A program made the position numbers and the translations under genes. From Glaciimonas sp. (GTDB lineage Bacteria; Pseudomonadota; Gammaproteobacteria; Burkholderiales; Burkholderiaceae_D): a stretch of 64,000 bases of DNA. The stretch is taken from assembly GCA_012927625.1 (NCBI GenBank), contig JABBOV010000008.1:404291-468290 (forward strand). The letters are read 5' to 3'. Below, one piece after another: positions 2,469 to 62,369 of this stretch (positions are counted from its first letter, which is position 1; each line of letters begins with the position of its first letter). The notes under the pieces are model-generated. The model saw only the letters and a program-made list of their open reading frames with translations. It made no database searches and was not told where the DNA came from.

Positions 2469-2499
2469 GCGGAAATACGCACGTTTTTAAGCATACTCC
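2469..2499 (-). repeat. AT-rich dispersed element, copy E1
   Basis: Read on the minus strand, this has GGAGTAT starting at 2499 and CCGC starting exactly 27 nt later at 2472, separated by an A-rich spacer. It lies between the penicillin-binding protein stop and the RIO kinase start. Its first box plus GCTTAAAAA is identical to the copy at 62337. This copy is degenerate in the second box (CCGCTT rather than CCGCAT). Confidence 0.6.
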
Positions 2500-2526
2500 G
2501 CATTATTTTAATATTTTTCGAGCGGC

Positions 2527-4923
2527 TCACTGCGGCCTTGGCGCATCGACTACTGACTCGCCCGTACTCAGGCCGGCGTCGGGGTTCGCGTCCGGCCGAG
2601 GTTCCGCCGGCAACGCTTGCCCCTGCGGTAGTGTGCGTAATTGCCCCATCCAATCCTCGGGAGGAGGTTCTGCTACAGGTGCGGCTGATTCTTCCACTAT
2701 TGCCGGAGCCGGAGCCGGAGCCGGCGCTAGTTTGCCGCCCGGGAATAGCGCTGTGGCATCGATTAGCCGCGCATTCAATGCGCTACGGAAGAAGTCGCCC
2801 ACCAGCAGCACCGCATTGTGTCCGCCCTGCCCCCAATAATTGCTGCGCATGGTGACACGCGCATCGTTAAAGCCAACCCAAGCTCCGGCGACCAGATTCG
2901 GATGCATCAGGATAAACCAGCCGTCGGTATTGTTTTGCGTGGTGCCGGTTTTGCCGGCGATATCGGCGCTGATGCCGAAACGCGCTTTGACCGCCTGGCC
3001 AGTACCCTGATTGACCACGCCGCGCATCATATCGATCAGCGTTATTGCCGACTCTGCCGACATCGCGCGCTGGCTTTTGGTATCGAAGGTGGCCAGCACC
3101 CGGCCGTTGCGGTCGGTAATGCTTTTGACGAAAACCGGTTTCCGATATTCGCCCTGGGCCGCAATGGTCGCATACGCCGACACCATTTCCAGCAAGGTCA
3201 CCGGACTGGTGCCCAGCGCCAGCGACGGCACTTGCGCCAGTTTGCTCTGATTGATGCCGACCGCTTTGGCCAGCTTGACGATTGCGGGCAGGCCGACATC
3301 CTGCATCACTTGCGCGGTGATGGTATTTTTCGAGTACACCAAACCCTGGCGCAGCGTCATGGTTTTGCCACTCGCGCCCGACATATCGGTGGGCCGCCAA
3401 ACGCTGCCGTCGGCGGCGCGAATATCGATCACGCTGTCCTGGTACGGCCGATCCGGGCGAAAACCTTTCTCCAGCGCGGCGCCATACACGATCGGTTTGA
3501 AGGTCGAGCCGGGCTGGCGCTCGGCTTGCGCCACATGGTCAAACTGATCGCGCTGAAAATCGCGGCTGCCAACCCAAGCCCGCACCTCGCCGTTGGTTGG
3601 ATCAATCGCCACAAAGCCGGCTTCCAGCCGCGTTTTGGCGGCGCGCAGCCGGGCGATGAAATTACGATCGGCGTGCAGTTTTTTGAAGGTATCGGCGGCA
3701 CTGGCACCGCCTTCCAGCGCGCTTCTATATTCGGGCGATTCGCGGATGAAGCTGTCCTGCAGCTCGCCTTGGGTATCCCAAAAATAGCGGAACGGCACAA
3801 TTTGCCGACGCACGCTGGCATACACGGCAGTCGAAGTCGAGATCAGGCCGCCCTGGCTCTGTCCCCATTCCACATCGGCGATGTTTTGCAACGCACTGGC
3901 TTGCCGTTCGACTGCGCGCAGCGCCGCCTTCTGCAATCCGGCATCGAGCGTGGTATGGATAATCAAGCCGTCGAGCTGCAAGTTATAGTCATTCTGGTCG
4001 GCCCATTCGATCAGCCACTTGCGCACATGCGCAGTGAAATGGGTTTCGGTGCTGTCTGCTGGTTCGTATTGGCGGTGAAAACGCACCCTCAGCGGCTTTT
4101 TCAGCAGCGACTGGTACTGCGCATCGCCCAAATTCCCGTATTTGCGCATTTGCCCCAGCACCACATTGCGCCGCTCCAGCGAACGTTCCGGGTTGAGCAC
4201 CGGATTATAGTAATGGGTGCCTTTGAGCATGCCAACCAGGGTCGCGCTTTCCAGCACATTCAGTTTCGCCGCCGATTTATCGAAATACGTGCGCGCCGCC
4301 ATTTCGATGCCGAACGCGTTGTATAAAAACGGCACCGTGTTCAAATACGTTTCGAGAATCTGATCCTTGCTGTACGCGCTCTCGATCTTGAAGGCGGTAA
4401 CCATTTCCTTGAGCTTGCGGCTGACGCTGCGCGAACGGCCAATCTCTTCCGGGAACAGATTACGCGCCAATTGCTGCGTAATGGTCGAACCGCCCTGAGC
4501 GTCGCCGCCCAAGGTATGCAAAACCGCACCTGCCGTGCGCCGGAAGTCTACCCCGTGGTGCTGGTAAAAGCGGTGATCTTCGGTCGCGATCAAAGCCTGG
4601 ATAACCAGGGGAGAAACCTGCTCCAGCTTGATGCGTTCCTGTTGACCCTGGTTGAAGGCGGCCAGCTGCTGGCCGTCGGCCGATAGGATCGTGCTCGCTT
4701 GCGCGGTGCGCGCCTGTTGCAAATCCTTGATGCTGGGTGTGGTTGGAATCAGTACCAGAACGTACAAAAACAGCAGTCCGAACAGCGTAGCGCCGGTCAG
4801 GCCGAGCAGAAGCGCGCCGCGCCGAAACGGCGGCTGGCGCACCACATAAGCAAACAAGCACGCAAACCAGCGCGTGCCAGTGGCCCGCAGCTGACTAGCG
4901 CGCTGGCGTAGCAGGTCCAGCAT
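2527..4923 (-). CDS. Class A penicillin-binding protein (PBP1A-like glycosyltransferase/transpeptidase)
   Basis: This bifunctional peptidoglycan synthase polymerises glycan strands and cross-links peptides at the inner membrane. After one N-terminal membrane helix come the GT51 motifs EDHRFYQHHGVD (near residue 115), GGSTITQQLARNLF, RKLKEM and KDQILETYLN. The transpeptidase motifs follow: STFK (catalytic serine, near 470), SKN and KTGTT (near 658). The tail is rich in Ala-Pro and acidic residues, including an APAPAPAPA run encoded by a 6-bp repeat near 2704-2725. The ORF track extends to 5142, but those extra 73 codons cross a dispersed palindrome and do not look protein-like. I take ATG 4923; TTG 4950, preceded by AGG at good spacing, is equally plausible. 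The length of about 798 residues suits the family. Confidence 0.92.
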   Translation of the reverse strand: MLDLLRQRASQLRATGTRWFACLFAYVVRQPPFRRGALLLGLTGATLFGLLFLYVLVLIPTTPSIKDLQQARTAQASTILSADGQQLAAFNQGQQERIKLEQVSPLVIQALIATEDHRFYQHHGVDFRRTAGAVLHTLGGDAQGGSTITQQLARNLFPEEIGRSRSVSRKLKEMVTAFKIESAYSKDQILETYLNTVPFLYNAFGIEMAARTYFDKSAAKLNVLESATLVGMLKGTHYYNPVLNPERSLERRNVVLGQMRKYGNLGDAQYQSLLKKPLRVRFHRQYEPADSTETHFTAHVRKWLIEWADQNDYNLQLDGLIIHTTLDAGLQKAALRAVERQASALQNIADVEWGQSQGGLISTSTAVYASVRRQIVPFRYFWDTQGELQDSFIRESPEYRSALEGGASAADTFKKLHADRNFIARLRAAKTRLEAGFVAIDPTNGEVRAWVGSRDFQRDQFDHVAQAERQPGSTFKPIVYGAALEKGFRPDRPYQDSVIDIRAADGSVWRPTDMSGASGKTMTLRQGLVYSKNTITAQVMQDVGLPAIVKLAKAVGINQSKLAQVPSLALGTSPVTLLEMVSAYATIAAQGEYRKPVFVKSITDRNGRVLATFDTKSQRAMSAESAITLIDMMRGVVNQGTGQAVKARFGISADIAGKTGTTQNNTDGWFILMHPNLVAGAWVGFNDARVTMRSNYWGQGGHNAVLLVGDFFRSALNARLIDATALFPGGKLAPAPAPAPAIVEESAAPVAEPPPEDWMGQLRTLPQGQALPAEPRPDANPDAGLSTGESVVDAPRPQ

Positions 4924-5092
4924 GCGCGGCAGGAATTTTTTTTCGTTCAAGTCGAACCTATCGGAGGTTTTCGGAAGAATCGGGAGTGCCGGGATTACAG
5001 ACACAATTGCAGGCACAACATGATACAGGCGGATACCGTTGAGCGCAGGCAACTCGTATCCGGGCAAACGGAGCGAAGCATACACCAGAGCG

Positions 5093-5145
5093 GTAGTGCC
5101 GGCCTGCGTGCCGGCAACCGGTGCAGGCACGCAGGCTGGCATTAC
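5093..5145. repeat. Dispersed palindrome family A, copy A1 (divergent)
   Basis: A near-perfect inverted repeat starts GTAGTGCCGGCCTGCGTGCC and ends with its reverse complement ...GGCATTAC. It is a variant of the family seen at 34762, 42579 and 47653 (GTAGTGCAGGCCTCCGTGCC). It sits between the NlpC/P60 lipoprotein and the penicillin-binding protein, three bases past the lipoprotein stop, where its hairpin could end or protect the transcript. Confidence 0.75.
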
Positions 5146-5147
5146 TT

Positions 5148-7881: not shown

Positions 7882-9585
7882 TTAATCCTCAAGCTGGTTA
7901 CTGATGCGCATCGCTTCGCCGACTGTGGTTTTTCCTGCGACCACCATTGCCACCGCGTGTCTACGCAGGGTTTCGCCGGCCATTTGCGCTTGCGCCACCT
8001 TGATGAAGGCGGCCGGATCATTAGCATTGGCTGCATCCGCCACTTCCTGGGTCATTTCAAGCATTTCGTAGACTCCAATGCGACCGCGAAAACCAGTGCC
8101 GTTGCAGTGCGAGCAGCCGCGCCCATGCCGATAGCGGTGGGTATTGACCGCGTCTTTAAGCTCTGCCTTCAGCCATTCATACTCGTGAGTTTGCAATGGA
8201 TGGTCTTCCGTACAGCTTTCGCAAATCACGCGCACCAGGCGCTGCGCCACCACCGCTTGCAGCGAGCTGCCGACCATATAACCAGGCACGCCCATGTCCA
8301 GCAAACGCATCGGCGTGCTGATGGCGTCGTTGGTGTGCAGAGTCGACAACACCAAATGGCCGGTCATCGCAGCGCGCATGCCGATCTGGGCCGTTTCCTG
8401 GTCGCGCATCTCGCCCACCAGCACCACGTCAGGGTCTTGCCGTAACGCGGAGCGCAGCACCCGGGCAAAATTAAGTTCGATTTTGTCGTTGACCTGCACC
8501 TGGTTAATGCCGGCCAGCCTGTATTCGACCGGGTCTTCGACCGTAATCAGCTTTCTTTCCATGGTGTTGAGCTCGGACAGCGCGCCATACAACGTGGTGG
8601 TTTTGCCGCTGCCGGTCGGCCCGGTTACCAGCACCAGGCCGTTCGGGCGCTGCACGATGGCGCGGAAGCGTTTCAGCATTGCTGGCGGCATGCCGATGGC
8701 GTCCAGATTGAGCGTGCCGCCACTTTGGTTGAGCAGACGCATCACCACCGATTCGCCGTACTGGGTCGGCATGGTGGAAATCCGCACGTCGATCTGTTGC
8801 TGCTTGACCTTGATCGCAAAGCGGCCATCCTGCGGTATGCGCTTTTCTGAAATATCGAGCTCCGACATCAGCTTCAGACGCAATGCCAGCGATGCAGCAA
8901 TCTTGATATCGGCCTCGGTTTGCAGGTGCAGCACGCCATCGATGCGAAATCGGATCTGCAAGCGTTTTTCCTGCGGCTCGATATGGATGTCGGAAGCGCG
9001 CACCTGAGTCGCGTCATCGAATACCGATTGCAGCAGCTTGACCACCGGTGCATCCTCCAGACCTGCGCCCATCCCCAACGTGCCGAAATCGGTGTTGCCG
9101 TCGCCCAGATCCCGCTCCAATTCGCGCGCCAGGCCGGATATCTCATCGGTGCGGCGATACAGCCGGTCAATGGTCTGCAGCAGCTCGCTTTCATTGACCA
9201 CCGCCAGCGCGATGTCGCGCTTCACCAGACGCGTAATTTCATCATAGGCAAACAGATCGGTTGGGTCGGCCATGCCGATCAGCAGCATGCCATCGCGCTC
9301 GTCGAGTGCGATGGCACGAAAACGGCGCGCCTGCATTTCAGGCAACAGGCGCACCGTTTGCGGTTTGATGTTGTAGTGTTTCAGATTGATGTAAGGGATG
9401 TTGAGCTGCCGTGCCAGCGCGCCGGAAATGATCTCTTCCGTCACAAAACCGTTTTCGACGAAAACCCGTCCCAGTTTTCGCCCGGTACGTTTTTGCTCGC
9501 TGAGTGCCAATTGCAACTGCTCTTCGGACAGCAGTTTTTGCTGCAGCAGAATCTCACCCAAACGAATTTTTTCCGGCCTGGCCAT
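7882..9585 (-). CDS. mshE: MSHA pilus assembly ATPase MshE with c-di-GMP-binding N-domain
   Basis: The 567-residue GspE/PilB-type hexameric ATPase powers MSHA pilus extension. The N-terminus carries two successive MshEN-type motifs, RLGEILLQQKLLSEEQLQLA (residue 8 on) and LGRVFVENGFVTEEIISGA; in Vibrio MshE and PilB relatives this 24-residue pattern binds c-di-GMP. Then come Walker A GPTGSGKTTTLYG (near 322), an Asp box, Walker B DPDVVLVGEMRD, and a CxxC...CxxC zinc site (CESC near 453, CSHC near 495). The Shine-Dalgarno AAGGAG is 5 nt before ATG. It is transcribed away from the pilin genes, with mshG behind it. Confidence 0.93.
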   Translation of the reverse strand: MARPEKIRLGEILLQQKLLSEEQLQLALSEQKRTGRKLGRVFVENGFVTEEIISGALARQLNIPYINLKHYNIKPQTVRLLPEMQARRFRAIALDERDGMLLIGMADPTDLFAYDEITRLVKRDIALAVVNESELLQTIDRLYRRTDEISGLARELERDLGDGNTDFGTLGMGAGLEDAPVVKLLQSVFDDATQVRASDIHIEPQEKRLQIRFRIDGVLHLQTEADIKIAASLALRLKLMSELDISEKRIPQDGRFAIKVKQQQIDVRISTMPTQYGESVVMRLLNQSGGTLNLDAIGMPPAMLKRFRAIVQRPNGLVLVTGPTGSGKTTTLYGALSELNTMERKLITVEDPVEYRLAGINQVQVNDKIELNFARVLRSALRQDPDVVLVGEMRDQETAQIGMRAAMTGHLVLSTLHTNDAISTPMRLLDMGVPGYMVGSSLQAVVAQRLVRVICESCTEDHPLQTHEYEWLKAELKDAVNTHRYRHGRGCSHCNGTGFRGRIGVYEMLEMTQEVADAANANDPAAFIKVAQAQMAGETLRRHAVAMVVAGKTTVGEAMRISNQLED

Positions 9586-10199
9586 ACATGCTCCTTATAG
9601 TTTTTGCCTGGGAAATCTGGTGCCCTGCATTTTATGCCATACAGACACGGCGAACCGGCAGGTTTTTCCGATCATCAGGCATTCTGGCCGGTGCGCACCA
9701 CAGTGTGCCCGCTCCGCCGGCATCGATCAAGACACCCTATTTTCAATGGAAAAAAGCGGAGTATATGCATAAATATAGGAATCTACGCATTATTTAAATA
9801 CATCTAAAAAAATACGCAGGTAAGTATAGTTAAATTTCCGAACCAACAACAAAGTCTGTCTGTATCGGCGATGCCATATCGAAGTAGTGAACGCAAGCAC
9901 AGAATCTCAAACCGTCCGGCACGCTCGCATTATCTATTTATACGTTTAACAAGGAGCCGATCAGAGCACCATTGTGGCAACGGCACCACAGTGTTATTGG
10001 CGCCAGGAAATTTAAGTTGTTTTTCGTTATTAAATATCAGCATTTATAGTAAAAAAAGTCAATTTTTTTTATAGGTTAGAAAAAGCCGGCTTCTTCCCAT
10101 GTAGTATTGCGAAACAAAAATTGCTCCACGATATTTGTTATTGCGAAGTATCATTTTTGTATAAACTTGGCAAAAGAACTCAGTTCAGGAACATAGAAA
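9586..10199. other. Divergent mshE / pilin intergenic region
   Basis: A 614-bp AT-rich spacer separates mshE from the first pilin gene and should hold both promoters and a 5' leader. It contains the dispersed AT-rich element at 9758-9790 and poly-A/poly-T stretches around 10040-10080. Three overlapping short + ORFs at 9604-9807 and one at 9871 lack coding character. No RNA gene was recognised. Confidence 0.5.
9758..9790 (+). repeat. AT-rich dispersed element, copy E2
   Basis: GGAGTAT at 9758 is followed by ACGCAT exactly 27 nt downstream (9785) and then TATTTAAA. Same layout as copies at 13725, 26918 and 62337. It lies in the mshE/pilin divergent spacer. Confidence 0.65.
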
Positions 10200-10673
10200 A
10201 TGCGAAAAATGCAGTCAGGTTTTACGCTCATGGAGTTGGTGCTGGTCATCACCATCCTGGGCATATTGGCTGCGGTAGCACTGCCAAAATTCGCCGCGCT
10301 GCAAGCCGAAGCGCGAATCGCAAAGATGAACGGCGTGCTCGGGTCGATCAAGGTGGCCGCTGTCTTGGCCCATTCTGTGCAATTGACACAGCAATTAACC
10401 GTTGATACCAATATTACGATGGAAGGTTCAGTCATCGCGATGACGAATGGCTATCCGACCACCGCTCTGGCTTCGATAGGCACTGCGGCAGGTCTAGCGA
10501 ATGGGACAGTGGCCATAGCCGGTTTTGTGCCGGTCGCCACCAGTGCAGCTGTTTTTACGGTTACTCCCGACACAACGCATGCTAACTGCACGGTCACCTA
10601 TACGCCGTCCAGCGTCGTCGGAACTTCGCCGACTTACGACAATGCCGGCTTGACTGCAGCGAATTGCCAATAG
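10200..10673 (+). CDS. MSHA-type type IV pilin / prepilin (first copy, MshA/MshB-like)
   Basis: The 157-residue prepilin has a very short basic leader, MRKMQSG, cut before FTLMELVLVITILGILAAVA. The cleavage Gly and Glu at mature position 5 are present. The hydrophobic helix is the polymerisation core. The C-terminal half is Thr/Ala-rich with a Cys pair (ANCTVTYTP...TAANCQ) suited to the usual pilin disulfide loop. It is the first gene of the + strand pilus operon, followed by a hairpin and a second pilin gene. Whether this is the minor MshB or a second major pilin cannot be settled by eye; its length and D-region suggest a major-type pilin. Confidence 0.85.
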   Translation: MRKMQSGFTLMELVLVITILGILAAVALPKFAALQAEARIAKMNGVLGSIKVAAVLAHSVQLTQQLTVDTNITMEGSVIAMTNGYPTTALASIGTAAGLANGTVAIAGFVPVATSAAVFTVTPDTTHANCTVTYTPSSVVGTSPTYDNAGLTAANCQ

Positions 10674-10684
10674 CGCGGCATTCA

Positions 10685-10712
10685 ATCTTTACGCCATGCA
10701 TGCCGTAAAGAT
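10685..10712 (+). other. Perfect 9-bp stem-loop between the two pilin genes
   Basis: ATCTTTACG at 10685-10693 pairs perfectly with CGTAAAGAT at 10704-10712 around a 10-nt loop. No U-tract follows, so it is not a classic Rho-independent terminator. Hairpins between pilin genes can stabilise or partly end the upstream message; that role here is inference. Confidence 0.5.
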
Positions 10713-10784
10713 AGTACAAGTCGTATAACTGATGCAAAGCGCCGGTACTACGGCACCTTGAATTATTTAATAACGGAATTGAAT

Positions 10785-11231
10785 ATGAACATGCACATGA
10801 AGATGAACAAGCAACAATCTGGTTTTACCCTGATCGAATTGGTGATGGTGATCGTGATTCTGGGCATTCTGGCTGCGACCGCGTTGCCGAAATTTGTTGA
10901 TTTGAAAACCGACGCTGATAATGCCGCAATCCTAGGTGTGATTGGTGGGTTGAATTCTGCTGCCGCTATTAACTACGCTGGATGTGCCGTAGTAAATAAC
11001 GTAGTGACCGCTAACAAATGTGTCAACGTTACAAAGTGTTCTGGCGTTGGCCTTTTATTGACACCTGCGCTGACTTTGGGCACAACGGCAAGCACCACAA
11101 ATTATTATTTAACCGCAGATACAGGCGTGACGACCAACGGCACATCTCAGGCGTGTACCCTGAACAAAGACAAATCTACCGGTGTTGTTGGCCCAACAGG
11201 CTCGTTTACCGCAATCGGTGCTGGCAATTAA
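10785..11231 (+). CDS. mshA: MSHA major pilin MshA-like prepilin
   Basis: The ATG at 10785 follows a GGAA Shine-Dalgarno by 6 nt and is preferred over the TTG at 10758 in the ORF track. The leader MNMHMKMNKQQSG is Met/Lys-rich, and mature FTLIELVMVIVILGILAATA has Glu5. The mature part carries several cysteines (YAGCAVV, NKCVNVTKCSG, QACTLNKD), more than a simple single-loop pilin. The C-terminus ends in Gly/Ala. It shows the same helix as the gene 112 bp upstream but a quite different globular domain. By position and size it is the best MshA candidate, forming the pilus shaft after processing by a PilD-type peptidase encoded elsewhere. Confidence 0.85.
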   Translation: MNMHMKMNKQQSGFTLIELVMVIVILGILAATALPKFVDLKTDADNAAILGVIGGLNSAAAINYAGCAVVNNVVTANKCVNVTKCSGVGLLLTPALTLGTTASTTNYYLTADTGVTTNGTSQACTLNKDKSTGVVGPTGSFTAIGAGN

Positions 11232-11235
11232 CCTA

Positions 11236-11294
11236 GTAGGGTAGGCAGGACGTTGTGCCCCGCGGGTATTCAAACCCGTGGGCAAGCGCCCTAC
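11236..11294. repeat. Dispersed palindrome family C, copy C1
   Basis: Starts GTAGGGTAGGCAGG and ends GCGCCCTAC, with an inner hairpin whose arms are GCCCCGCGGGT and ACCCGTGGGC. It starts 5 bp after the mshA stop. It resembles the copies at 47841 and 53811 in its GTAGGG...CCCTAC ends and CGGGT core. The hairpin could separate the highly expressed pilin from the minor pilin genes. Confidence 0.65.
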
Positions 11295-11352
11295 AAGGCT
11301 AAACGTCATGCCGTCTTCTTGTCGCAAACAACATTTTTCGGTGAGTTAACAC

Positions 11353-11823
11353 ATGACGACGCCAACCAAAATCGCGGGATTCACCCTGATTGAACTCATC
11401 ATGGTGATGGTTATCATCGGGGTTCTCGCGGTTGCAGCTATGCCGCGTTTTATGGATCGCAAGACCTTCGAGACGCGCGGTTTTCATGATCAAACAAAAT
11501 CAATGTTGCGTTACGCGCAAAAAACCGCGATTGCGCAGCGCCGTTTTGTTTGCGTTGCCTTTACGTCCAGCAGCATTACCCTGACCATCGATGCCATCAA
11601 TAATGCGGCGACGGCAACATGCCCAGGAACCGCTCTGGCTTCGGCGGACGGCAAGCTGACGTCAGTCGTTACCGCCCCTTCCGGCATCACGTTTTCCCAG
11701 ACACCGGCTGATTTTAGCTTTGGCGCACTGGGCCGACCTGGCTTTAATACACAACAAAGCATCAGCGTAGTTGATGTCGCTAGCGCTATTCTCATAGAAT
11801 CCGAGACCGGCTATGTCCACTGA
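11353..11823 (+). CDS. mshC: MSHA minor pseudopilin MshC-like (GspH/FimT-type)
   Basis: The 156-residue prepilin-like protein has leader MTTPTKIAG, then FTLIELIMVMVIIGVLAVAA and the MPRFMDRKTFETRGFHDQ segment typical of GspH/FimT-like minor pilins. The rest is beta-rich with a CVAFTSSS...ATCPGTAL Cys pair. Minor pseudopilins prime pilus assembly at the inner membrane and may sit at the tip. The stop overlaps the next gene's start by 11 bp, so translation is probably coupled. Confidence 0.85.
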   Translation: MTTPTKIAGFTLIELIMVMVIIGVLAVAAMPRFMDRKTFETRGFHDQTKSMLRYAQKTAIAQRRFVCVAFTSSSITLTIDAINNAATATCPGTALASADGKLTSVVTAPSGITFSQTPADFSFGALGRPGFNTQQSISVVDVASAILIESETGYVH

Positions 11824-12376
11824 ATACCGGCAAAGAGGCATCTCGCTGATCGAACTGATCATGTTCATCGTGATCGTCAGCGTCGGCATTGCCGGCATCT
11901 TGTCGGTGATGAATGTCACCACCAAGGCCAGCGCCGACCCGCTGCTGCGCAAACAGGCGCTGGCGATTGCCGAATCGCTGCTGGAAGAAATCGAGTTGCA
12001 GCCCTTTACCTACTGTGCGCCGGATGATACCAATGCGTTGACTGCCGCCAATGCTGCCGGTTGTGCAGTACCGGCTAACTCTGAAGACAGTTTGCCAACC
12101 GCAGCAAGGGTTAGCAATGTGGCACAGCGCGATGCTGCCAATGTCGCCGATTACACCAATTTTGCAATGGCGCCGATACGGGATATTTCGGGTACGCAGA
12201 TTAATGGGCTGGCGGCCTATTCTGCGTCAGTTGCAATAACTCAAGTCGGCGATACTTTGACCCCGGCAGTTGCAAAAAATGACGCATTGCAAATTGACGT
12301 CCGGGTCGTCTCAGGCAACACCGATATCACCCTCACCGGCTACCGCTTCCGCTATGCGCCCAATGCCTTACCCTGA
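11813..12376 (+). CDS. mshD: MSHA minor pseudopilin MshD-like
   Basis: The 187-residue protein has a leader MSTEYRQRG and a GspI/PilV-like helix ISLIELIMFIVIVSVGIAGI with Glu at position 5. Then comes KQALAIAESLLEEIELQPF, a hallmark of MshD/PilV-type minor pilins. It starts inside the end of mshC and is followed closely by mshO. It has two cysteines in the CAPDDTN...AAGCAVPA loop. The MshD name rests on order and family resemblance. Confidence 0.83.
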   Translation: MSTEYRQRGISLIELIMFIVIVSVGIAGILSVMNVTTKASADPLLRKQALAIAESLLEEIELQPFTYCAPDDTNALTAANAAGCAVPANSEDSLPTAARVSNVAQRDAANVADYTNFAMAPIRDISGTQINGLAAYSASVAITQVGDTLTPAVAKNDALQIDVRVVSGNTDITLTGYRFRYAPNALP

Positions 12377-12380
12377 CGCG

Positions 12381-51029: not shown

Positions 51030-51039
51030 ATGGCTTTTT

Positions 51040-52777
<1,738 letters not shown>

Positions 52778-53680
52778 ATGTCAATGCAATCCACTGTTTC
52801 TGACGTTTATCCAATTGAAGATGCCAGCCCAAGCGCTGCCTTTGATGGCAATAATTCAGGAGTGTCATGGGGCGCTGTGCTGGCCGGAGCGGCCGCCGCT
52901 GCCGCCCTGTCACTGCTCTTGCTCATCCTTGGAATTGGGCTTGGCTTGTCGGCGGTTTCGCCTTGGTCGTATAACACTGCGACGATGGGAAAATCAACCA
53001 TTCTCTGGCTTGCGTTCAGCCAGTTTGCCGCCGCTGGCATCGGCGGTTATCTAGCCGGTCGCTTGCGCGTCAAATGGGTCAGCGCTCACACCGATGAAGT
53101 GTATTTCCGCGATACCGCGCATGGCTTGCTGGCATGGGCGGTCGCAACTTTAGTGACGGCAATTTTCCTGGCAGGCGCGGTACGCGCCGTAGCCAGTGGT
53201 GCCATAGATACCCTTTCCACAGCCGCAGCTGCGGGGGCCAGCGCCAGCAGCAATGCGTCGGATGTTGGCACCGGTCCGGTCGGCTACTTTTCCGACATGC
53301 TGCTGCGTTCCGACAAGCCTGCGCCGGCTGGCGATGCCGCCACCCGTGCCGAGATTGTGAAGATTCTCACTAATGACCTACATGCCGGCACCCTGGCTGC
53401 TGACGACCAGCAATATCTCTCGCGCCAGGTCGCCCGCAACACTGGTTTGTCACAGTCGGACGCCGACATGCGGGTGAACGACGTCTATGCGCGCATGATT
53501 AAAGCAAAAGCCGACGCCGAGGCTACTGCAAAAGCTGCCGCTGAAAAAGCGCGCAAGGTCGCCGCCCAATCGGCACTGTGGATGTTTGTCGCATTGTTGC
53601 TAGGTGCTTTTATCTCCAGCCTGATGGCGACCTTTGGCGGCAGGCAACGCGACGACATGCGAGGCATCAAAGGGCGCTGA
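52778..53680 (+). CDS. Conserved hypothetical inner-membrane protein
   Basis: The start at ATG 52778 has AGGAG 5 nt upstream; the 46 codons before it in the track look non-coding. The 300-residue protein has hydrophobic segments near 30-55 (SWGAVLAGAAAAAALSLLLL), 75-100 (AFSQFAAAGIGGYLAGRL), 115-140 and a C-terminal helix (LWMFVALLLGAFISSLMATF). Between them is an Ala/Asp-rich soluble part with NDVYARMIKAKADAEATAKA forming a helix. Homologues in Burkholderiales are sometimes labelled 'PhnA-like', which nothing here supports. Function unknown; the following micro-gene may be co-expressed. Confidence 0.8.
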   Translation: MSMQSTVSDVYPIEDASPSAAFDGNNSGVSWGAVLAGAAAAAALSLLLLILGIGLGLSAVSPWSYNTATMGKSTILWLAFSQFAAAGIGGYLAGRLRVKWVSAHTDEVYFRDTAHGLLAWAVATLVTAIFLAGAVRAVASGAIDTLSTAAAAGASASSNASDVGTGPVGYFSDMLLRSDKPAPAGDAATRAEIVKILTNDLHAGTLAADDQQYLSRQVARNTGLSQSDADMRVNDVYARMIKAKADAEATAKAAAEKARKVAAQSALWMFVALLLGAFISSLMATFGGRQRDDMRGIKGR

Positions 53681-53722
53681 AGCATACATACAAACTCATC
53701 ATCACCTACACAGGAGAACACT

Positions 53723-53794
53723 ATGCGATCAATTCTATTATTTTTTCTTGGCATCCCAATCCCCATCATTATTTTGATTGCGTTATTGCATTAA
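53723..53794 (+). CDS. 23-residue hydrophobic micro-protein
   Basis: Too short for the ORF track. ATG 53723 with a strong AGGAG 6 nt upstream reads MRSILLFFLGIPIPIIILIA and ends LLH. It is a single membrane helix with two central prolines. I recall near-identical tiny proteins (MRSxLLxxLGxPIPIIILIALx) in many proteobacteria, often next to membrane or stress genes, usually unannotated. It starts 42 bp after the membrane protein gene, so co-transcription is likely. Function unknown. Confidence 0.75.
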   Translation: MRSILLFFLGIPIPIIILIALLH

Positions 53795-53810
53795 TCGATC
53801 CTGCCAGCGC

Positions 53811-53871
53811 GTAGGGCGGGTGCAACCCGCGGCGAGCCGCATTGATTGCGCGCGGGTTCCACCCGCCCTGC
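53811..53871. repeat. Dispersed palindrome family C, copy C3
   Basis: GTAGGGCGGGTGCAACCCGC at the left and GCGGGTTCCACCCGCCCTGC at the right enclose a 20-nt middle. It lies between the micro-gene and the catalase gene, ending 50 bp before the catalase start. Confidence 0.8.
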
Positions 53872-53921
53872 TTGCCTAATATTCCGTAAGCCTTACATCA
53901 CATTTTCGCGAGGTATATCTC

Positions 53922-56336
53922 ATGGTTAAACGTAAAAAGTCGGCGTCATCGATTGCCGGTGCTGGTTCCATTTTGAGCACAGTCTCAGGCCCCTCCGGCA
54001 CCAAACCGCCTGGCAGCCTGGGCAGCACAGAAGCAGCGCCCAGCCACCTGTTGGAAAAAGTTTCGGCTGGACAAGAACTGTCGGCGCAGATGCCCTACAA
54101 CCCGACCAAGTCCGGCGAATACGGCGAAGCGGCGCGCACGCCACAGCCAGGACCAAACGCCACGCCGACCAAGGATTCGGCCACCGCCTCCACCGCTACT
54201 GAAATTAACCCGTCGCCGAAAGTGGGCGCAGGGCAACCGTTGACCGGCAGCAATCCCGCGGTCGCGCCGCTAGACCGGGTGCGGGTCGATGCCAGCGGCC
54301 AAATGCTGACGACCAACCAAGGCGTGGCAGTGGCCGATAATCAGAATTCGCTGAAAATCGGCTTGCGCGGGCCGACCGCGCTGGAAGACTTCATTCTGCG
54401 CGAGAAGATCACCCACTTCGACCACGAACGGATTCCCGAACGCGTGGTGCATGCGCGTGGCTCGGCCGCGCATGGCTATTTCGAATCCTATAAAGACCTC
54501 AGCGACCTGACCCGCGCCGCGCCGTTCTCGCAGGCCGGCAAACGCACCCCGGTGTTTGTGCGTTTTTCCACCGTGGCCGGCGAGCGCGGCTCGGCCGATA
54601 CCGTGCGCGACGTGCGCGGTTTCGCGGTCAAGTTCTATACCGACGAAGGCAACTGGGATCTGGTGGGCAATAACATGCCGATCTTTTTCATTCAGGATGC
54701 GATGAAATTTCCCGACCTGGTGCACGCAGTCAAACCCGAACCCCATAACGCGATACCGCAGGCGTCCAGCGCCCACGATACGTTTTGGGATTTCATGTCG
54801 CTGATGCCGGAGACGGCCCACATGATGCTGTGGATCATGTCGGACCGTGCGATCCCGCGCAGCTTACGCATGATGCAAGGCTTCGGCGTGCATACATTCC
54901 GACTGGTGAACGCGCAGGGTGCATCGGTGTTTTGCAAATTCCATTGGAATCCTATCGCCGGCACCCATTCGCTGGCCTGGGATGAAGCGGTGAAAATCGC
55001 CGGTGCCGATGGCGACTTCCACCGGCGCGATTTGTGGGAGGCAATCGAAGCCGGCGCTTACCCTGAATGGGAACTGGGACTGCAGATTTTCTCCGAGGCA
55101 GAAGCCGAACAGTTCGACTTCGACGTGCTGGACCCGACCAAGATCGTGCCGGAAGAATTGGTGGCGGTGATGCCAGTCGGAAAGATGACGCTCAACCGCA
55201 ACCCCGATAATTTCTTCGCCGAGACCGAGCAAGTCGCGTTCTGTACCGCGCATGTGGTGCCCGGCATCGACTTCACCAACGACCCGCTGTTGCAGGGCCG
55301 CATCCATTCGTATATCGACACCCAGATCAGTCGTCTTGGCGGCCCGAATTTCCATGAAATTCCGATCAACGCACCGCTCGCGCCGGTGTTCAACAATCAG
55401 CGCGACGGCATGCATCGGCAAGCCATCCATCGCGGACGCGCCAACTACGAGCCGAACTCACTCGGTGGCGGCTGCCCATTTCAGGCCGGCATGCAGGGTT
55501 ACACCAGCTTCCCGGAACAAATTACCGCGGACAAAGTACGCGGCAAAGCGGAACTGTTCGCCGACCATTATTCGCAAGCGCGGCTGTTCTGGAATAGCCA
55601 GAGCCCAGTCGAGCAGGCGCACATTATTTCGGCTTTCCGTTTTGAGTTAACGCGGGTACAAACGCCAGCGGTGCGCCAGCGTGTGGTATCGCTGCTAGTG
55701 AACGTGAATCAGGTGCTTGCCGCCAGCGTGGCCCAAGGGTTGGGGATCGAGGTGCCCGCCGCAATGCCGCTGGCGTCCGAGTTGCCGATTCCTGAATATG
55801 CCCCCTCGCCGACACTGTCGCTGCTGTTCCGGCCGGGTCAACTAGGGATTCGCACGCGGCGCGTTGCGGTGCTGGTTGCGGCAGGCGTGGATGGCGCAAT
55901 GGTGCAATCCATCTATGCCGCTCTGCTTGCCGACGGCGCGGTACCGCGTTTAGTGGGCAACCAGCTTGGCAAGCTCGCAACCAGTGACGGGAACAGCCTC
56001 GACGTCGAAATCTCGCTCGAAACCGGGCCGTCCGTGCTGTACGACGCGGTGGTTGTACCAGACGGCGCTGCAGCAGCCAAAGCATGGACGCTGGACGCCC
56101 ACGCGCTGGATTTCGTGCGGGATCAATATCGGCATGGCAAACCGATGCTGGCGATCGGCACCGGCTCGGCGCTATTGGAAAAAGCAGGAATTCCGGTCGC
56201 CTTACCGGACGGCAGCGCCGACCCTGCACTAATCGACACCAACAGCACAGGGTTGGCACAAGCGCTGGTTGCTTTCAAATCTGCATTGGCCAAGCATCGC
56301 GCTTTCGAGCGCGAGACTAATCCGCCGCGGGTCTGA
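53922..56336 (+). CDS. katE: Large-subunit catalase (HPII-type, clade 2) with C-terminal flavodoxin/GATase-like domain
   Basis: The 804-residue haem enzyme breaks down hydrogen peroxide. A Ser/Pro/Gly-rich N-terminal arm of about 135 residues precedes the core. The catalytic His is in [18 protein letters not shown] (near 178), the distal Asn in [20 protein letters not shown] (near 248), and the haem-ligand Tyr in [17 protein letters not shown] (near 465). The C-terminal part (residues 640-795, [20 protein letters not shown]) is the GATase1-like domain found only in large catalases. It is alone, flanked by repeats. Control by RpoS or the OxyR encoded at 27 kb is possible but unproven. Confidence 0.95.
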
Positions 56337-56406
56337 TGGAGCGGCAATGTTGGGCGGCGCTATGCCCAGTACCAACCTGCCAATCTCACATCTAAAATAC
56401 TTGGCA

Positions 56407-56439
56407 TGAGTATGACAAATAACATGCCTTTCTCCGCAT
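56407..56439 (+). repeat. AT-rich dispersed element, copy E8
   Basis: TGAGTAT at 56407 and CCGCAT at 56434 are exactly 27 nt apart. The spacer shares AACATGCCTTT with the copy at 62337. Just after it, TCCGCATATAAAATATGCGGA (56433-56453) forms its own palindrome. It lies between convergent katE and folE2. Confidence 0.6.
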
Positions 56440-56507
56440 ATAAAATATGCGGAGCTATAAAATACTCGGTAGATTGGTGTTGGGCGCTGCCCACAACCTT
56501 GTTTGAA

Positions 56508-56534
56508 CCCTCTCTCACGCTCGCGGGAGAGAGG
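56508..56534. repeat. Small palindrome family F, copy F2
   Basis: CCCTCTCTCACGCTCGCGGGAGAGAGG forms a stem between katE and folE2; possible terminator for either convergent gene. Related to the palindrome in the pilT-pilU gap. Confidence 0.5.
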
Positions 56535-56621
56535 CGGCTTGAACGATCTGAATAGTACCGAAAATCCATTACGCAATCACGCGCGATGCAACCCGTTTAA
56601 AACCGGGTTTTAAACCAGGTT

Positions 56622-57437
56622 TTAAACCCTCTTATCGCACTCGATCAGCGCATACGCCTGATGGTTGTGGATCGATTCGAAGTTCTCGGCTTCCAGCGTG
56701 TAGGCCAGCACCGATGGCTCCCGATTAAGCATGCCGGCCACATCGCGCACCAAGTCTTCGACAAACTTCGGATTGTCGTAAGCACGTTCGGTGACGTATT
56801 TTTCATCCGGGCGCTTGAGCAAGCCGTACAGTTCGCAAGAAGCCTGCGCCTCGACCTTGGCAATCAGGTCGTCAATCGGCAACTCGCCTTCCACCAATGC
56901 GGAAATGGTGATGTGCGAGCGCTGGTTGTGGGCGCCATAGGCCGAAATTTTCTTCGAGCATGGGCACAGGCTGGTGACCGGCACCATTACTTTCAGGGAT
57001 ACTTCGGCGACGCCGTTCTTGATCTCGCCGCTGAAACCGACTTCGTAATCCATCAAGCTTTGCACCCCGGAAACCGGCGCGGTCTTGTTGACGAAATAGG
57101 GAAAAGTCAGTTCGACGTGGCCGGAATCGGCTTCCAGCAAGGTCATCATGCGTTGCATCAGATCACGGAACATCGCCACATCAAGGCCACCGCGCTGCGC
57201 CGCATCCAGCCCTTCGAGCAAGGCGATGAAACGCGACATGTGCGTGCCTTTTTGGTGCTCCGACAAATGCACATACATGTTCCAGCTGCCGACCGTAGCC
57301 TGAACTCCAGCCGAAGTTTTGACAGCCACTGGATAACGCACGCCTTTGACGCCGACGCGCTGGATTGCAATCTGCCGGGTATCGGGTGTGCTCTGGACAT
57401 CGGGAATGCTAGTCATAGGATCGTCACGGGTATTCAT
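56622..57437 (-). CDS. folE2: GTP cyclohydrolase FolE2 (type IB)
   Basis: About 271 residues from ATG 57437 (the track's TTG 57440 adds one codon). FolE2/MptA blocks include [20 protein letters not shown] (near 55), [20 protein letters not shown] (near 155) with the active-site Cys, and [20 protein letters not shown] (near 205). It converts GTP to dihydroneopterin triphosphate for folate. FolE2 tolerates metals other than zinc and is often a zinc-limitation backup; no Zur box was located. It is the last gene of an xseB-ispA-dxs-folE2 run, 55 bp after dxs. Confidence 0.94.
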
Positions 57438-57492
57438 CAAAAACCTTTATGTTGGCGTGCAAGCATGCAGCTTGCACGCTTCCACTTAGATA

Positions 57493-59391
57493 TTATTTAA
57501 TTGCAATCGGCTGCGCTATCGACTGTGGTATCCGTTGCTGCGCCGGCTTCAAGGTATTTTCAAATCGCTGCTGTATCGACGCTTCGATGCCATCGGCGTC
57601 GAGACCGCAGGCCGCGAGCAGTTGCGCGCTATCGCCGTGGTCGATGAAACGATCCGGCAAACCCAGCATCAACAGCGGCTTGATAACGCCGGCAGCCGCT
57701 AGCGCTTCAGCCACCGCAGAACCTGCGCCGCCCATGATGGCGCCCTCCTCAACCGTCACCAGTGCATCGTGGCTGGCAGCCAATTGCAACACCAATTCGT
57801 CATCGAGCGGCTTGACGAAACGCATGTTGACGACGGTTGCATCCAACGCCTGCGCTGCTATCAGGCTGGGTGCCACCATGCTGCCGAACGCGAGTATGGC
57901 GATGCTTTTTCCAGAGCGCTTGATCTCACCTTTGCCGATTGGTATGGTGCCCAATTCCGGCAACACTGCCACACCGATACCGGCACCGCGCGGATAGCGC
58001 ACTGCTGCCGGGCCATTATATTGGAAAGCGGTGGTGAGCATCTGACGGCACTCATTTTCGTCTGACGCAGCCATGACGACCATGTTCGGGATGCAGCGCA
58101 GATAGACCAAATCGTAATTGCCGGCGTGGGTAGCACCGTCGGCACCGACTAAACCAGCCCGGTCGAGCGCAAAAGTCACGTCCAGGTTTTGTAGCGCAAC
58201 ATCGTGAATCAGCTGGTCGTAACCGCGCTGCAGGAAAGTCGAATAAATCGCCAGCACCGGCTTCATGCCTTCGCACGCCATGCCGGCGGCGAAGGTTACT
58301 GCATGTTGTTCGGCGATGCCGACATCGTAATAGCGCTTCGGAAACAATTGTTCGAAACGCACCATTCCGGAGCCTTCGCGCATGGCCGGCGTGATGCCAA
58401 CCAGGCGCGGCTCGAGTGCGGCCATGTCGCACAGCCAGTCGCCGAAGACATGGGTATAAGTCAGCTTGCCGGCAACTGCCGGTTTAATCCCTTCCGCCGG
58501 ATTGAACTTGCCGGGGCCGTGATACAGCACCGGATCGGCTTCGGCCAGCTTGTAGCCCTGGCCTTTTTTGGTAACCACATGCAGAAACTGCGGCCCTTTC
58601 AGTTTTTTCAAGTTTTGCAGGGTCGGGATCAGCGCATCCAGATCGTGGCCGTCAATCGGGCCGATGTAATTGAAGCCGAATTCCTCGAACATGGTGGCCG
58701 GCATGATCATGCCTTTAGCGTGTTCCTCGAAACGCTTGGCCAGTTGCAGCATCGGCCCCGGCAGCACGGTCTTGCCGACTTGCCGGGCCGCTGCATAAAA
58801 CCTGCCCGACATCAAGCGCGCCAGATAGCGGTTCAAAGCGCCAACCGGCGGCGAGATCGACATGTCGTTGTCGTTCAGGACTACTAGCAGGTTGATGTCG
58901 TCGTAGATGCCGGCGTTGTTCATCGCCTCGAACACCATGCCGGCAGTCATTGCGCCGTCGCCGATGACCGCAATCGCATGCCGGTCTTCGCATTTGGTGC
59001 GGGCCGCCAACGCCATTCCGAGCGCAGCCGAAATCGAGGTCGACGAGTGGGCGGTGCCGAAAGTGTCGTAAATGCTTTCATCGCGGCGCGGGAAGCCGGA
59101 AATGCCGTTTATTTGACGCAGCGAATGCATCCGCTCGCGCCGTCCGGTCAGGATTTTGTGTGCGTAGGTTTGGTGGCCGACATCCCAGACGATGCGGTCT
59201 TCCGGTGTATTGAACGCATAATGCAGCGCAATCGTCAGCTCGACCGTGCCGAGATTGGATGATAAATGGCCACCGGTTTTGGATACCGAGTCGATGATGA
59301 AATGGCGCAATTCATCAGCCAGCGGCCTGAGTTGCGCGCGCGTTAATTGCCGCAAATCTGCGGGGCTGTCTATCTGTTTGAGTAGGTTCAT
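57493..59391 (-). CDS. dxs: 1-deoxy-D-xylulose-5-phosphate synthase
   Basis: The 632-residue thiamin-diphosphate enzyme condenses pyruvate and glyceraldehyde-3-phosphate, the first step of the MEP isoprenoid pathway. It has [20 protein letters not shown] (near 30), the catalytic His region [17 protein letters not shown] (near 115), the ThDP motif [20 protein letters not shown] (near 145), and the transketolase pyrimidine domain [20 protein letters not shown] (near 360). It lies 1 bp after ispA, so both isoprenoid genes are translated together. Confidence 0.96.
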
Positions 59392-59392
59392 A

Positions 59393-60325
59393 CTAGGTTT
59401 TCCGTTGCACGATCAGGTTCGCCAGTTCACGTAAGCGCAGTGCCTTATCTCCGAAAGGCAGAATTGCTGCATGCGCATCCTGCCGTAATTGTTCCGCCAG
59501 CACCAAAGATGCATCCAGCCCCAGGATCGAGACATAAGTTGGCTTGTTGTCGGCTGCATCCTTGCCGGCAGTTTTGCCCAAAGTGGCCGAATCGGCGGTG
59601 GCGTCGAGAATGTCGTCAACCACCTGGAATGCCAAACCGATGGCGGCGGCAAAGCGATCCAGCGCCTGCTCTTCTGCGGCTGTCAGCAACTTGCCCGACA
59701 GCGCGCCCAGCAACACCGCTGCGCGCAGCAAAGCGCCGGTCTTCAAGCGATGCATCTGTTCCAATTGTAGGCGCGACAAGTTTAGACCGACGCTGGCCAG
59801 ATCGATGGCTTGACCGCCACACATGCCCATTGCGCCGGATGCCTGCGCCAGCAGCCGCACCATCGCCAGCTTGCAACTGGCGTCGCCAGCGCCTTCAGCC
59901 AGCACCAGAAATGCGTGCGCCTGCAACGCGTCGCCTGCCAGCAAGGCGGTGGCCTGGCCGAATTTGACATGCACGGTGGCCTTGCCGCGCCGTAGCGCAT
60001 CGTCGTCCATGCACGGCATGTCGTCATGCACCAGCGAATAGGCGTGGATCATTTCGACCGCAGCCGCAGCGCGCTGCATTTGCTGTTGTCCGGCTGCGAA
60101 CAATTCGCCGGCCGCAAATGCCAGTAGCGGCCGAACTCGCTTGCCGCCATCCAGCACAGCGTAGCGCATGGCCTGGCGCAACACTGCGGACGCACTGGCG
60201 TCAGCCGGCAAAAAGGATGACAGCGCCTGCTCCATCGATGCCTGCACTGAATTCATCCAAACACTGAAAGATTGCACGGGAGCTTGCACAACGGGTTTCA
60301 TATCTACTTTGCTAGCGCCTGCCAT
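59393..60325 (-). CDS. ispA: Farnesyl diphosphate synthase (geranyltranstransferase) IspA
   Basis: The 310-residue enzyme makes farnesyl diphosphate. The first Asp-rich motif is in [20 protein letters not shown] (near 100) and the second in [20 protein letters not shown] (near 240). [11 protein letters not shown] (near 55) and KTGALLRAA (near 195) are also conserved. Its ATG 60325 directly follows the xseB stop. An N-terminal extension of about 20 residues ([20 protein letters not shown]) is longer than usual, so a later Met at residue 24 could be the real start. Confidence 0.95.
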
Positions 60326-60586
60326 CTAGGCATCCCTCACAGTATCGATATTGGTATCGGCAGCAAATGGTTTCAGCATGTCGCCTTGCAGCACCTTGAC
60401 TTGGTTATCCACCTTGTCGAGTTGCGCCGCGCAATACTTGATCAGCTCCGAACCGCGCTGATAGGCCGCCACGGAAGCTTCCAGCGGCAAGCTGCCGGCC
60501 TCCATTTGCGTCACCAGTTGCGCGAGCTCGGCCATCGCGTCTTCAAATGAAGCGGACAAATTGGCGGAAGGCTGTTTTTTGGACAT
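60326..60586 (-). CDS. xseB: Exodeoxyribonuclease VII small subunit XseB
   Basis: An 86-residue protein from ATG 60586 (MSKKQPSANLSASFEDAMAE). The block LAQLVTQMEAGSLPLEASVA then AYQRGSELIKYCAAQLDKVD is the XseB signature. It joins XseA to degrade single-stranded DNA. As in many proteobacteria it is the first gene of xseB-ispA-dxs, with stop and next start adjacent. Confidence 0.94.
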   Translation of the reverse strand: MSKKQPSANLSASFEDAMAELAQLVTQMEAGSLPLEASVAAYQRGSELIKYCAAQLDKVDNQVKVLQGDMLKPFAADTNIDTVRDA

Positions 60587-60687
60587 AAGTGATCGAATCA
60601 AGCTGTGAATGAATACATAACCCGCTATTTTAGAGCAAACTGCCCGCGTTCAACGCGTACCGATGCGCCATCAAGCCGGCAAACCCG

Positions 60688-61158
60688 CTATTTTTTAAGT
60701 GGGATGATAGTCGTGCGCGGCACTGCCACTGCGGTCACCGCATTCTTCGGGCTGCCCGTAATCAGTTTGTCGGAATAGGTCAGGTACACCAGCGTATTAC
60801 GTGCGGCATCGACCATGCGCACCACGTGCAAGGTTTTGAAAACCAGCGAGCGGCGCTCGGAAAATGCATCTTCCTGGCGCGGCAGCGCTTCCTTGAAGCG
60901 AATCGGGCCGACCTGACGACAGGCAATCGACACATCCGACACTTCTTCCGCCACCCCCAGCATTCCGGCCACGCCGCCGCGTTCCGGCTTGGAAACGTAG
61001 CAAGCCACGCCTTCCACCTTAGGATCGTCGAAGGCTTCCACCACCAATTTGTGCGAACCCATCAGTTTGAATTCGGTGTTGACGCTGCCGATTTGCTGCG
61101 CCAGTGCAGCGCCGGACAACAAAACCGAGGATATGAACAATAATAAAGTTTTATGCAT
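60688..61158 (-). CDS. creA: CreA-family periplasmic protein
   Basis: The 156-residue protein starts at ATG 61158 with a signal peptide (MHKTLLLFISSVLLSGAALA, cut near AQQ). The CreA body follows: IGSVNTEFKLMGSHKLVVEA, FDDPKVEGVACYVSKPERGG, VSIACRQVGP, and LVFKTLHVVRMVDAARNTLV. The track's longer frame (to 61338) runs into intergenic repeats. The function of CreA is unknown. It lies 101 bp upstream of xseB on the same strand. Confidence 0.9.
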   Translation of the reverse strand: MHKTLLLFISSVLLSGAALAQQIGSVNTEFKLMGSHKLVVEAFDDPKVEGVACYVSKPERGGVAGMLGVAEEVSDVSIACRQVGPIRFKEALPRQEDAFSERRSLVFKTLHVVRMVDAARNTLVYLTYSDKLITGSPKNAVTAVAVPRTTIIPLKK

Positions 61159-61205
61159 GATGGTCGCGCTTTCAGTGTGAGATGAAGATAGTAGGATCAG
61201 CTTTG

Positions 61206-61371
61206 GTTGGGCTAACGCCTTTTCAGCCCAACACCGCAGCCCAACATTATCAATACTATGCGCAGAATATTGGGCCGCAAACTCGGTTTTGTAGGTCGGG
61301 TTAGCGGCTTTATCGTAACCCGCCATTCTCAACCGCAAATGTCAGGTTACGCTAACGCCGACCCGGACTAC
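61206..61371. repeat. Dispersed palindrome family B, copy B3 with a partial copy beside it
   Basis: The main copy runs 61291-61371: GTAGGTCGGGTTAGCGGCTT at the left, ending GCTAACGCCGACCCGGACTAC, an imperfect inverted partner. Immediately before it, 61206-61243 has GGTTGGGCTAACGCC and AGCCCAACACCGCAGCCCAAC, a partial related palindrome. Upstream of creA and downstream of mtnP. Confidence 0.7.
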
Positions 61372-61422
61372 TGGTTGTGACGCGTCCGGCCCTGAAAGTG
61401 CGTAAAAGATACGCCATACCCG

Positions 61423-62295
61423 TTACAAGTACTTGCGCAACAGTGGCTCCAGCCTTTCGCGGGTCGCCACCGGCATCGCAGCCGCTGGCGTCACCAGTGC
61501 TTGCGCCAGCGCCTGATGCGCTGCCGACGGCGGCGGATTGGCGCCGAGCCGCCGGATGCAGGCGCGCAGCACCGCTTGCGCGTTCTGCGCATTGTGCATC
61601 AGGTTGCCGATCGCCATTTCAGCCGTGACGGCCGCATGACCCGGATGCCAGCAATCGAAATCAGTCACCAGCGCCAGCGTCGCGTAAGCGATTTCGGCTT
61701 CCCGCGCCAGCCGCGCTTCCGGCATATTGGTCATGCCAATCACCGCCGCACCCCAGGAACGATACAACTGCGACTCCGCATACGTCGAAAACGCCGGCCC
61801 CTCGATGCAGAGATAGGCGCCGCCGCGATGCAGCGTGGCGTCCGGTAATTTGCAATCGAAAAAAGCTTGCGCCACCAGATCGGACAATGCCGCGCACACC
61901 GGCTGCGCGAAGCTAACGTGGGCCACTGCGCCCTGGCCGAAAAACGTGCCGGCACGCTGTCTGGTCATGTCGATGAACTGATCCGGCAACACCATGTCGC
62001 GTGGCGTCAAATGCTCCTGCAGCGAGCCGACCGCCGACACCGACAGCAGATAATCGACGCCGAGTTGCTTCATGGCCCACAGATTGGCGCGAAACGGAAT
62101 TTCGGACGGCAGCAGCGCATGGTTGCGCCCATGCCGCGCCAGAAATGCCACCGGCACGCCATCCAGCAGGCCAGTCATGATGGCGTCGGAAGGCGCGCCG
62201 AACGGGGTTTCAAGGCTGACTTCCTGCGCCTGTTGCAAGCCTTCCATGCGGTACAAGCCGCTACCGCCGATGATGCCGAAACGAATTTTTTTCAT
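61423..62295 (-). CDS. mtnP: S-methyl-5'-thioadenosine (or thioinosine) phosphorylase
   Basis: The 290-residue PNP-family enzyme salvages methylthioadenosine, a by-product of polyamine synthesis. [12 protein letters not shown] (near 6), [20 protein letters not shown] then [20 protein letters not shown] (near 50-85), [20 protein letters not shown] (near 160) and [20 protein letters not shown] (near 187) are family blocks. The nucleobase-site segment [10 protein letters not shown] would decide adenine versus hypoxanthine preference; I cannot settle it by eye. It is divergent from yciH, with the AT-rich element E9 between. Confidence 0.9.
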
Positions 62296-62336
62296 AGAGC
62301 GCCCAGAGTGTTTTGCTGTTATTTAAAGAAATTTAT

Positions 62337-62369
62337 GGAGTATGCTTAAAAAACATGACTTTACCGCAT
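62337..62369 (+). repeat. AT-rich dispersed element, copy E9 (best consensus match)
   Basis: GGAGTAT at 62337 and CCGCAT at 62364, exactly 27 nt apart, followed by TAATTTAA. The spacer holds GCTTAAAAAACATGACTTT, shared in parts with copies E1, E5 and E8. Between divergent mtnP and yciH. Confidence 0.7.

Follow-up and report, generated by a model that had tools for sequence, protein, structure and literature searches.

An evenly spaced intergenic element of about 70 bp, kept in place among relatives of Glaciimonas, as a candidate multi-box protein-binding site

We examined a window of 64,000 nucleotides (positions 404291-468290 of contig C14) from the 3.81-Mb draft genome of a Glaciimonas sp., labelled G000, in which copies of an AT-rich element recur in the spacers between genes. 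An initial annotation had described nine copies as two short boxes, GGAGTAT and (C/A)CGCAT, a fixed distance apart. All nine are real and intergenic, and a tenth lies among them. The copies are listed here with their position-weight matrix (PWM) scores, the positions being those of the window.

E1, 2430 to 2499, minus strand: score 72; extends from site 1 to site 3.
E2, 9758 to 9827, plus strand: score 70; in a divergent spacer.
E3, 13725 to 13794, plus strand: score 53.
E4, 23303 to 23372, minus strand: score 80; initially assigned to the wrong strand.
E5, 26918 to 26987, plus strand: score 74.
E6, 44557 to 44626, minus strand: score 69; initially assigned to the wrong strand; the same spacer is occupied in the related genomes G001, G002 and G003.
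E7, 47707 to 47776, minus strand: score 41.
Tenth element, absent from the initial annotation, 52312 to 52381, minus strand: score 58; reads GGGGTAT ... CCTATT ... ATATATAC ... GTATA.
E8, 56407 to 56476, plus strand: score 48; its middle box is the perfect palindrome CTCCGCATAtaaaaTATGCGGAG; in a convergent spacer.
E9, 62337 to 62406, plus strand: score 73; the same spacer is occupied in G002 and G003.

As originally stated, the second box begins at exactly +27 in E1-E3, E5 and E7-E9. E4 and E6 had been taken to carry the second box inverted at 29 nt, a misreading, because the GGAGTAT noted there is the reverse reading of the right-hand box, ATACTCC. A model with two classes of element, with a direct or an inverted second box, was ruled out by the alignment, in which a single asymmetric element occurs on both strands. 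Around E2 and E3 (7882-16587) lies a cluster resembling Type-IV-pilus/MSHA loci, with a PilB/MshE-type ATPase, a pilin-like protein and a DUF6701 protein. Adjoining E7 (47650-47702) is a GC-rich palindromic repeat with many near-identical copies (82-96%) in G002; it belongs to a REP-like family distinct from the element.

The aligned copies form one unit of about 70 bp with the consensus GGAGTAT-N4-A5 ... CCGCAT ... TGC ... AAAAAWAC-N8-GTATA, set in an AT-rich zone of about 93 bp whose edges are sharp, composition being at background from about -17 and +78. Positions are numbered from the first G of GGAGTAT as 0. A profile built on 47 copies shows, on the left, a W-rich stretch (-10 to -4), GGAGTAT (0-6, with GTAT strongest), an A-tract (11-15) and YA (16-17); in the middle, TYT (24-26), (C/A)CGCAT (27-32), a run of W (33-40) and TGC (41-43); and on the right, AAAAAWAC (51-58) and GTAT(A) (67-70). 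Two direct GTAT boxes thus lie about 64 bp apart, an inverted ATAC stands 8 bp before the second of them, and a palindromic middle box sits about midway between the two, with flanking A/T tracts. Between the boxes the sequence is unrelated from copy to copy (mean identity 0.42). The site had first been pictured as two boxes over two or three helical turns; we found at least five boxes over about seven turns. Terminal symmetry of the form GGAGTAT...ATACTCC is confined to a minority of copies, the right end usually being ATACA-N-AGTATA. Adjacent positions in the left spacer vary strongly together from copy to copy, with a mutual information of 0.72 at 19-20 and 0.56 at 7-8 against a null maximum of 0.25, a hint of register variants or of variation at the dinucleotide level.

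In the window GGAGTAT occurs 11 times against 2.5 expected, a count that no shuffle reached; three of the matches (15115, 16960 and 17479) lie inside long open reading frames (ORFs) and lack the second box. The spaced pattern GAGTAT-N20-MCGCAT occurs 6 times against 0.03 expected. The family is far larger than had been noted: over the whole genome a strict two-box pattern gave 199 matches (106 forward, 93 reverse) and none in the reversed control, a differently relaxed pattern gave 267 against 2 in its control, and the 27-nt offset was kept throughout. A PWM scan (non-overlapping matches, score of at least 20) covered 864 kb of the genome, taken as stretches and equal to 23% of it. It found 92 elements, and a third-order Markov shuffle of equal length gave 0; reversed sequence gave a few matches at low thresholds, two of them at 20. 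The density of one element per 9.4 kb extrapolates to about 405 per genome. Only AT-richness itself speaks for a chance coincidence of AT-rich spacers, a reading that these controls and the conservation at orthologous places refute and to which we assign practically no probability.

Conservation in place was assessed in three relatives. In Glaciimonas sp. KJS.1 (G003), about 95% identical to G000, 31 element loci were aligned; locus 348564 did not align across the element, and locus 243163 is low-scoring and probably not an element. Divergence between G000 and G003 was 0.016 in CCGCAT, 0.026 in GTAT, 0.032 in the A-tract and 0.033 in AAAAAWAC; the boxes overall ranged over 0.016-0.06, the stretches between them over 0.12-0.16. 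The G003 counterpart of C14:348564 holds a GC-rich palindromic repeat of the GGTCGGGTTAGCGTAGCG type instead, and this is the single locus not kept cleanly between G000 and G003. The genomes G001 and G002, the latter being the Oxalobacteraceae metagenome-assembled genome (MAG) C4_concoct.bin.115, have 82-86% DNA identity to G000 and belong to the same genus, labelled g1. Here the element lay in the same spacer at 10 of the 10 loci with both flanks testable, one pair (274446) being matched on a weak G000 copy; in the reverse direction one G002 match had no G000 counterpart, at a weak alignment. Box divergence was 0.07 for GTAT and for ATAC, 0.09 for the A-tract, 0.14 for AAAA, 0.19 for CGCAT and 0.21 for the third GTAT, against 0.38-0.57 at most positions between boxes. 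Picking elements by their G000 boxes lowers box divergence somewhat; it cannot shield the lineage of the other species. Judged from these alignments, separated boxes at fixed places are under purifying selection or an equivalent drive. The protein-binding site proposed initially therefore stands, in a larger form than proposed, as the best reading of this pattern of box conservation in orthologous spacers.

We considered whether the element acts as RNA or as DNA. RNAalifold found 0 consensus pairs on 50 aligned copies, no Rfam model matched the window at the gathering threshold, and relative to flanking co-directional genes 33 copies had the same and 22 the opposite orientation (P = 0.22). Because there is no consensus RNA fold and no orientation preference, we conclude that the element acts as DNA. 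A role in untranslated regions as a structured RNA or an attenuator could draw on the palindromic middle box, which changes in a compensatory way between clades, but the missing pairs, the lack of an Rfam match and the absence of strand preference relative to transcription already largely refute it, and we hold it to be highly implausible.

Gene context and spacing were evaluated with our own quick gene calls on the 864 kb. Copies occur in convergent, tandem and divergent spacers and practically outside coding sequence, as annotated at the outset; 2 of the 92 overlap predicted ORFs, both doubtful (a 52-codon ORF and the 5' end of another). Convergent spacers are occupied most often (13 of 31 at 150-300 bp and 6 of 15 at 300-600 bp, about 41%), tandem spacers are intermediate (19 of 90 and 16 of 46, respectively), and short divergent spacers are low, with 1 of 32. 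In tandem spacers the median distance from the element is 42 bp to the stop of the gene upstream and 99 bp to the start of the gene downstream (P = 0.014). Copies are also found inside operons, the his genes being ordered hisG-[element]-hisD-[element]-DNA methyltransferase-hisC. The two elements flanking hisD (locus L173, 7027-8630; C14:171318-172920 in G000) are 1.5 kb apart and form the closest pair seen.

These placements bear on a site of transcription control, whether a promoter, a terminator acting in both directions or an operator for a global regulator. In its favour, the element is intergenic and has TATACT-like hexamers on either strand; of the 16 promoter-like matches in 44001-63900, 5 coincide with elements, and one match resembling a terminator touches E7. 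However, AT-rich DNA draws promoter-like matches by composition, and the element is commonest in convergent spacers, rare in short divergent ones, nearer the upstream stop in tandem spacers, without preferred orientation and present inside operons. A simple promoter had been thought unlikely from the start, and the abundance in convergent spacers and the lack of orientation preference agree. A terminator role is disfavoured because copies occur inside operons such as his; an intrinsic terminator is unlikely, with no fold, no orientation preference, a position inside the his operon and a single overlap among 34 predicted sites. Overall, we consider transcription control very improbable.

The copies are spread more evenly than expected. 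Two elements never share one spacer in the 864 kb, the coefficient of variation of inter-element spacing is 0.67 against 0.94 (sd 0.10) simulated, and 8% of neighbouring pairs are closer than 3 kb against 23% simulated. Of 5000 simulated sets matched for gene arrangement and class of spacer length, none was as even as the observed one.

The element is restricted to few genera, labelled g1 (which holds G000), g32 and g65. A scan of genome contigs with a looser pattern gave mostly chance single matches, but repeated ones in Glaciimonas sp. KJS.1 and in one MAG of the Oxalobacteraceae. All four g1 genomes carried the element according to a sequence-only model, as did most of the g32 genomes sampled and g65; the few weak matches of this model in two more genera (G130 and G193) were not recovered by a second, cross-genus model, which detected the element in 24 of 394 genomes of the family and 3 of its 44 genera. 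Matches in a sample of the order (399 genomes) came only from the same family, and in a sample of the class (369 genomes) only from G000. A plain pattern of three GTAT-type boxes occurred 71 times in G088, 68 in G127, 36 in G178, 30 in G034, 23 in G093 and 20 in G114, with 0 in the controls; in the g32 genomes G258, G211 and G277 it had 0-2 matches. In these three and G364, also of g32, the element is nearly lost while congeners keep dozens.

Across carrier genera the outer GTAT/ATAC/GTAT boxes are constant and the middle palindrome differs by clade. Its outer letters change as matched pairs, reading CCGCA..TGCGG in g1 and G109, GTCCA..TGGAC in G178, GCGCA..TGCGC in G317 and GCCA..TGGC in g65; G088 and G127 have a less symmetric form, and g32 copies often have six G/C letters, in no fixed order, between ATAC and GTAT. 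Such matched changes would be expected if a dimeric protein had drifted in its specificity.

Of about 7 loci that could be compared between genera, none is occupied in common. A position seemingly common to G000 and g32 (L253) turned out to involve neighbouring spacers within one his operon. In that operon the spacer between hisD and the methyltransferase gene is 154 bp with the element in G000 and 8 bp in G109, the spacer between the methyltransferase gene and hisC is about 190 bp with the element in G109 and 12 bp in G000, and element-bearing spacers are overall about 140-180 bp longer than their empty counterparts. Given the differing positions and the longer element-bearing his spacers, the elements most likely entered each genus separately as inserted DNA and were kept thereafter. 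Within g1 no empty site was seen at the tested loci, and between genera empty and filled spacers are too diverged for a target-site duplication to be seen.

A transposed unit, the other possibility raised initially, is thus supported in part, by the spacers that differ between genera and the length of those that are filled. In its fuller form this reading makes the element non-autonomous, a solo transposon end or miniature inverted-repeat transposable element (MITE) with several transposase-binding sites and target immunity of the Tn7/Mu type. Immunity would yield the even spacing and the self-avoidance over about 3 kb, a shifting transposase specificity would yield the dialects, and the GGAGTAT...ATACTCC symmetry of some copies would fit transposon ends. 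Decaying copies, however, would not be common to all 10 testable g1 sites at 82-86% identity with their box letters kept. Recent duplicates have left little sign in the spacers (best pair 0.82, null maximum 0.79), and no autonomous parent was found, though none was systematically sought. The transposon reading accounts for how the elements were inserted and spaced but not for the conservation of boxes in place, and we regard it as unlikely, if worth serious attention.

An equivalent drive could also come from natural transformation, with the element marking the cell's own DNA for uptake. The DNA uptake sequences (DUS) of Neisseria, which the element matches in these respects, have hundreds of copies, are mostly intergenic and non-randomly spaced, are kept in place, are gained by insertion and form species dialects (PMC2397512, PMC3630211). 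The window moreover contains Type-IV-pilus-like genes, including the PilB/MshE-type ATPase. DUS are short, 10-12 bp, and uptake sequences also occur in genes. The element has about 400 copies only, needs about 70 bp and several boxes, and hardly ever lies in coding sequence. An uptake-type signal accounts for dialects, drive and spacing but not for the multi-box size or the near-absence from genes, and we judge it improbable.

Comparison with other known repeats gave partial likenesses only. DUS and uptake signal sequences (USS) are alike in being genome-wide, mostly intergenic, non-randomly spaced, kept in place and divided into clade-specific dialects; they differ in having cores of 9-12 bp (USS with flanking AT tracts), found in genes too, whereas the element has five jointly conserved boxes. 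The gyrase- and IHF-binding repetitive extragenic palindromes (REP) and bacterial interspersed mosaic elements (BIME) of enterobacteria and pseudomonads likewise number hundreds of intergenic copies, prefer 3' and convergent positions, occur inside operons and may have a role in chromosome topology. Unlike the element, which is AT-rich, not palindromic overall and without RNA fold, they are GC-rich hairpins mobilised by REP-associated tyrosine transposases (RAYT), and copies of the element repel one another rather than cluster. All 18 genomes searched contained the RAYT domain Y1_Tnp whether or not they had the element, which makes its co-occurrence uninformative. Correia elements, MITEs and enterobacterial repetitive intergenic consensus sequences (ERIC) resemble it as intergenic insertions, of roughly 100-150 bp, with some terminal symmetry; in those families the terminal inverted repeats are long and the copies nearly identical, whereas copies of the element have only short boxes in common. 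The chromosome-organising sites parS, matS and KOPS are, as the element putatively is, bound by protein, repeated along the chromosome and under selection, but each consists of one short site (8-16 bp) and shows a regional or strand bias, whereas the element is multi-box and even, with no strand bias seen. Open-access papers on dispersed intergenic repeats of Glaciimonas, Oxalobacteraceae, Undibacterium and Burkholderiales held nothing relevant, and we did not find the element described in them; the main text of a survey of spaced motifs in prokaryotic genomes (PMC5217627) does not mention the pattern.

An element that is under selection at its positions, avoids other copies of itself, is distributed evenly and goes with a clade-specific palindrome is best read, in our view and with about even confidence, as a multi-box binding site of a putative sequence-specific chromosome-organising protein, acquired by insertion and then retained. 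A putative DNA-binding protein, or such a protein with a partner, would contact the outer arms at GTAT/ATAC and the middle at the species-specific palindrome, and binding would probably bend or bridge the DNA. With one in each chosen spacer and about 9 kb from one to the next, the roughly 400 sites could then serve as anchor points for nucleoid or supercoil domains. Bacterial nucleoids have domains of roughly 10 kb; to our knowledge, no sequence-defined, evenly spaced anchors for them have been shown so far. More tentatively, and with clearly less confidence, we propose that the element may represent a new class of architectural site, in which about 400 self-avoiding multi-box copies some 9 kb apart, read by a putative clade-specific protein through a fast-changing middle-box dialect, would set the size of loops or supercoil domains in three Oxalobacteraceae-type genera.

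Several points weigh against a chromosome-organising site. No cognate protein has been identified. Even spacing could also arise from transposition immunity or an uptake-type drive, and the spacing test depends on the quick gene calls over less than a quarter of the genome. Positions that differ between genera imply that individual sites are dispensable in the long run, and among the g32 species a few (G258 and G211) hold almost no elements. Finally, the phasing of A/T tracts peaks at 10-10.5 bp with a block-permutation P of 0.09, which is suggestive, not significant, and was not used as evidence.

The density, selection, self-avoidance and dialects of the element would make the question of domain anchors directly testable, and would do so equally if the element were architectural, the end of a domesticated transposon or an uptake-type signal of a new kind. 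The set of elements is a ready multi-species alignment for a protein hunt, and the g32 species nearly without it (G258, G211, G277 and G364) provide a natural comparison set for the cognate protein.

Two minor observations concern single loci. L001 and L002 (C1:37717 and C1:42805 in G000), 5 kb apart, have about 50 bp of downstream flank in common and diverged inter-box sequence, and are apparently a tandem duplication. A further dispersed repeat, of which G001 and G002 have many copies (75-90% identity), occupies 61280-61371 of the window.

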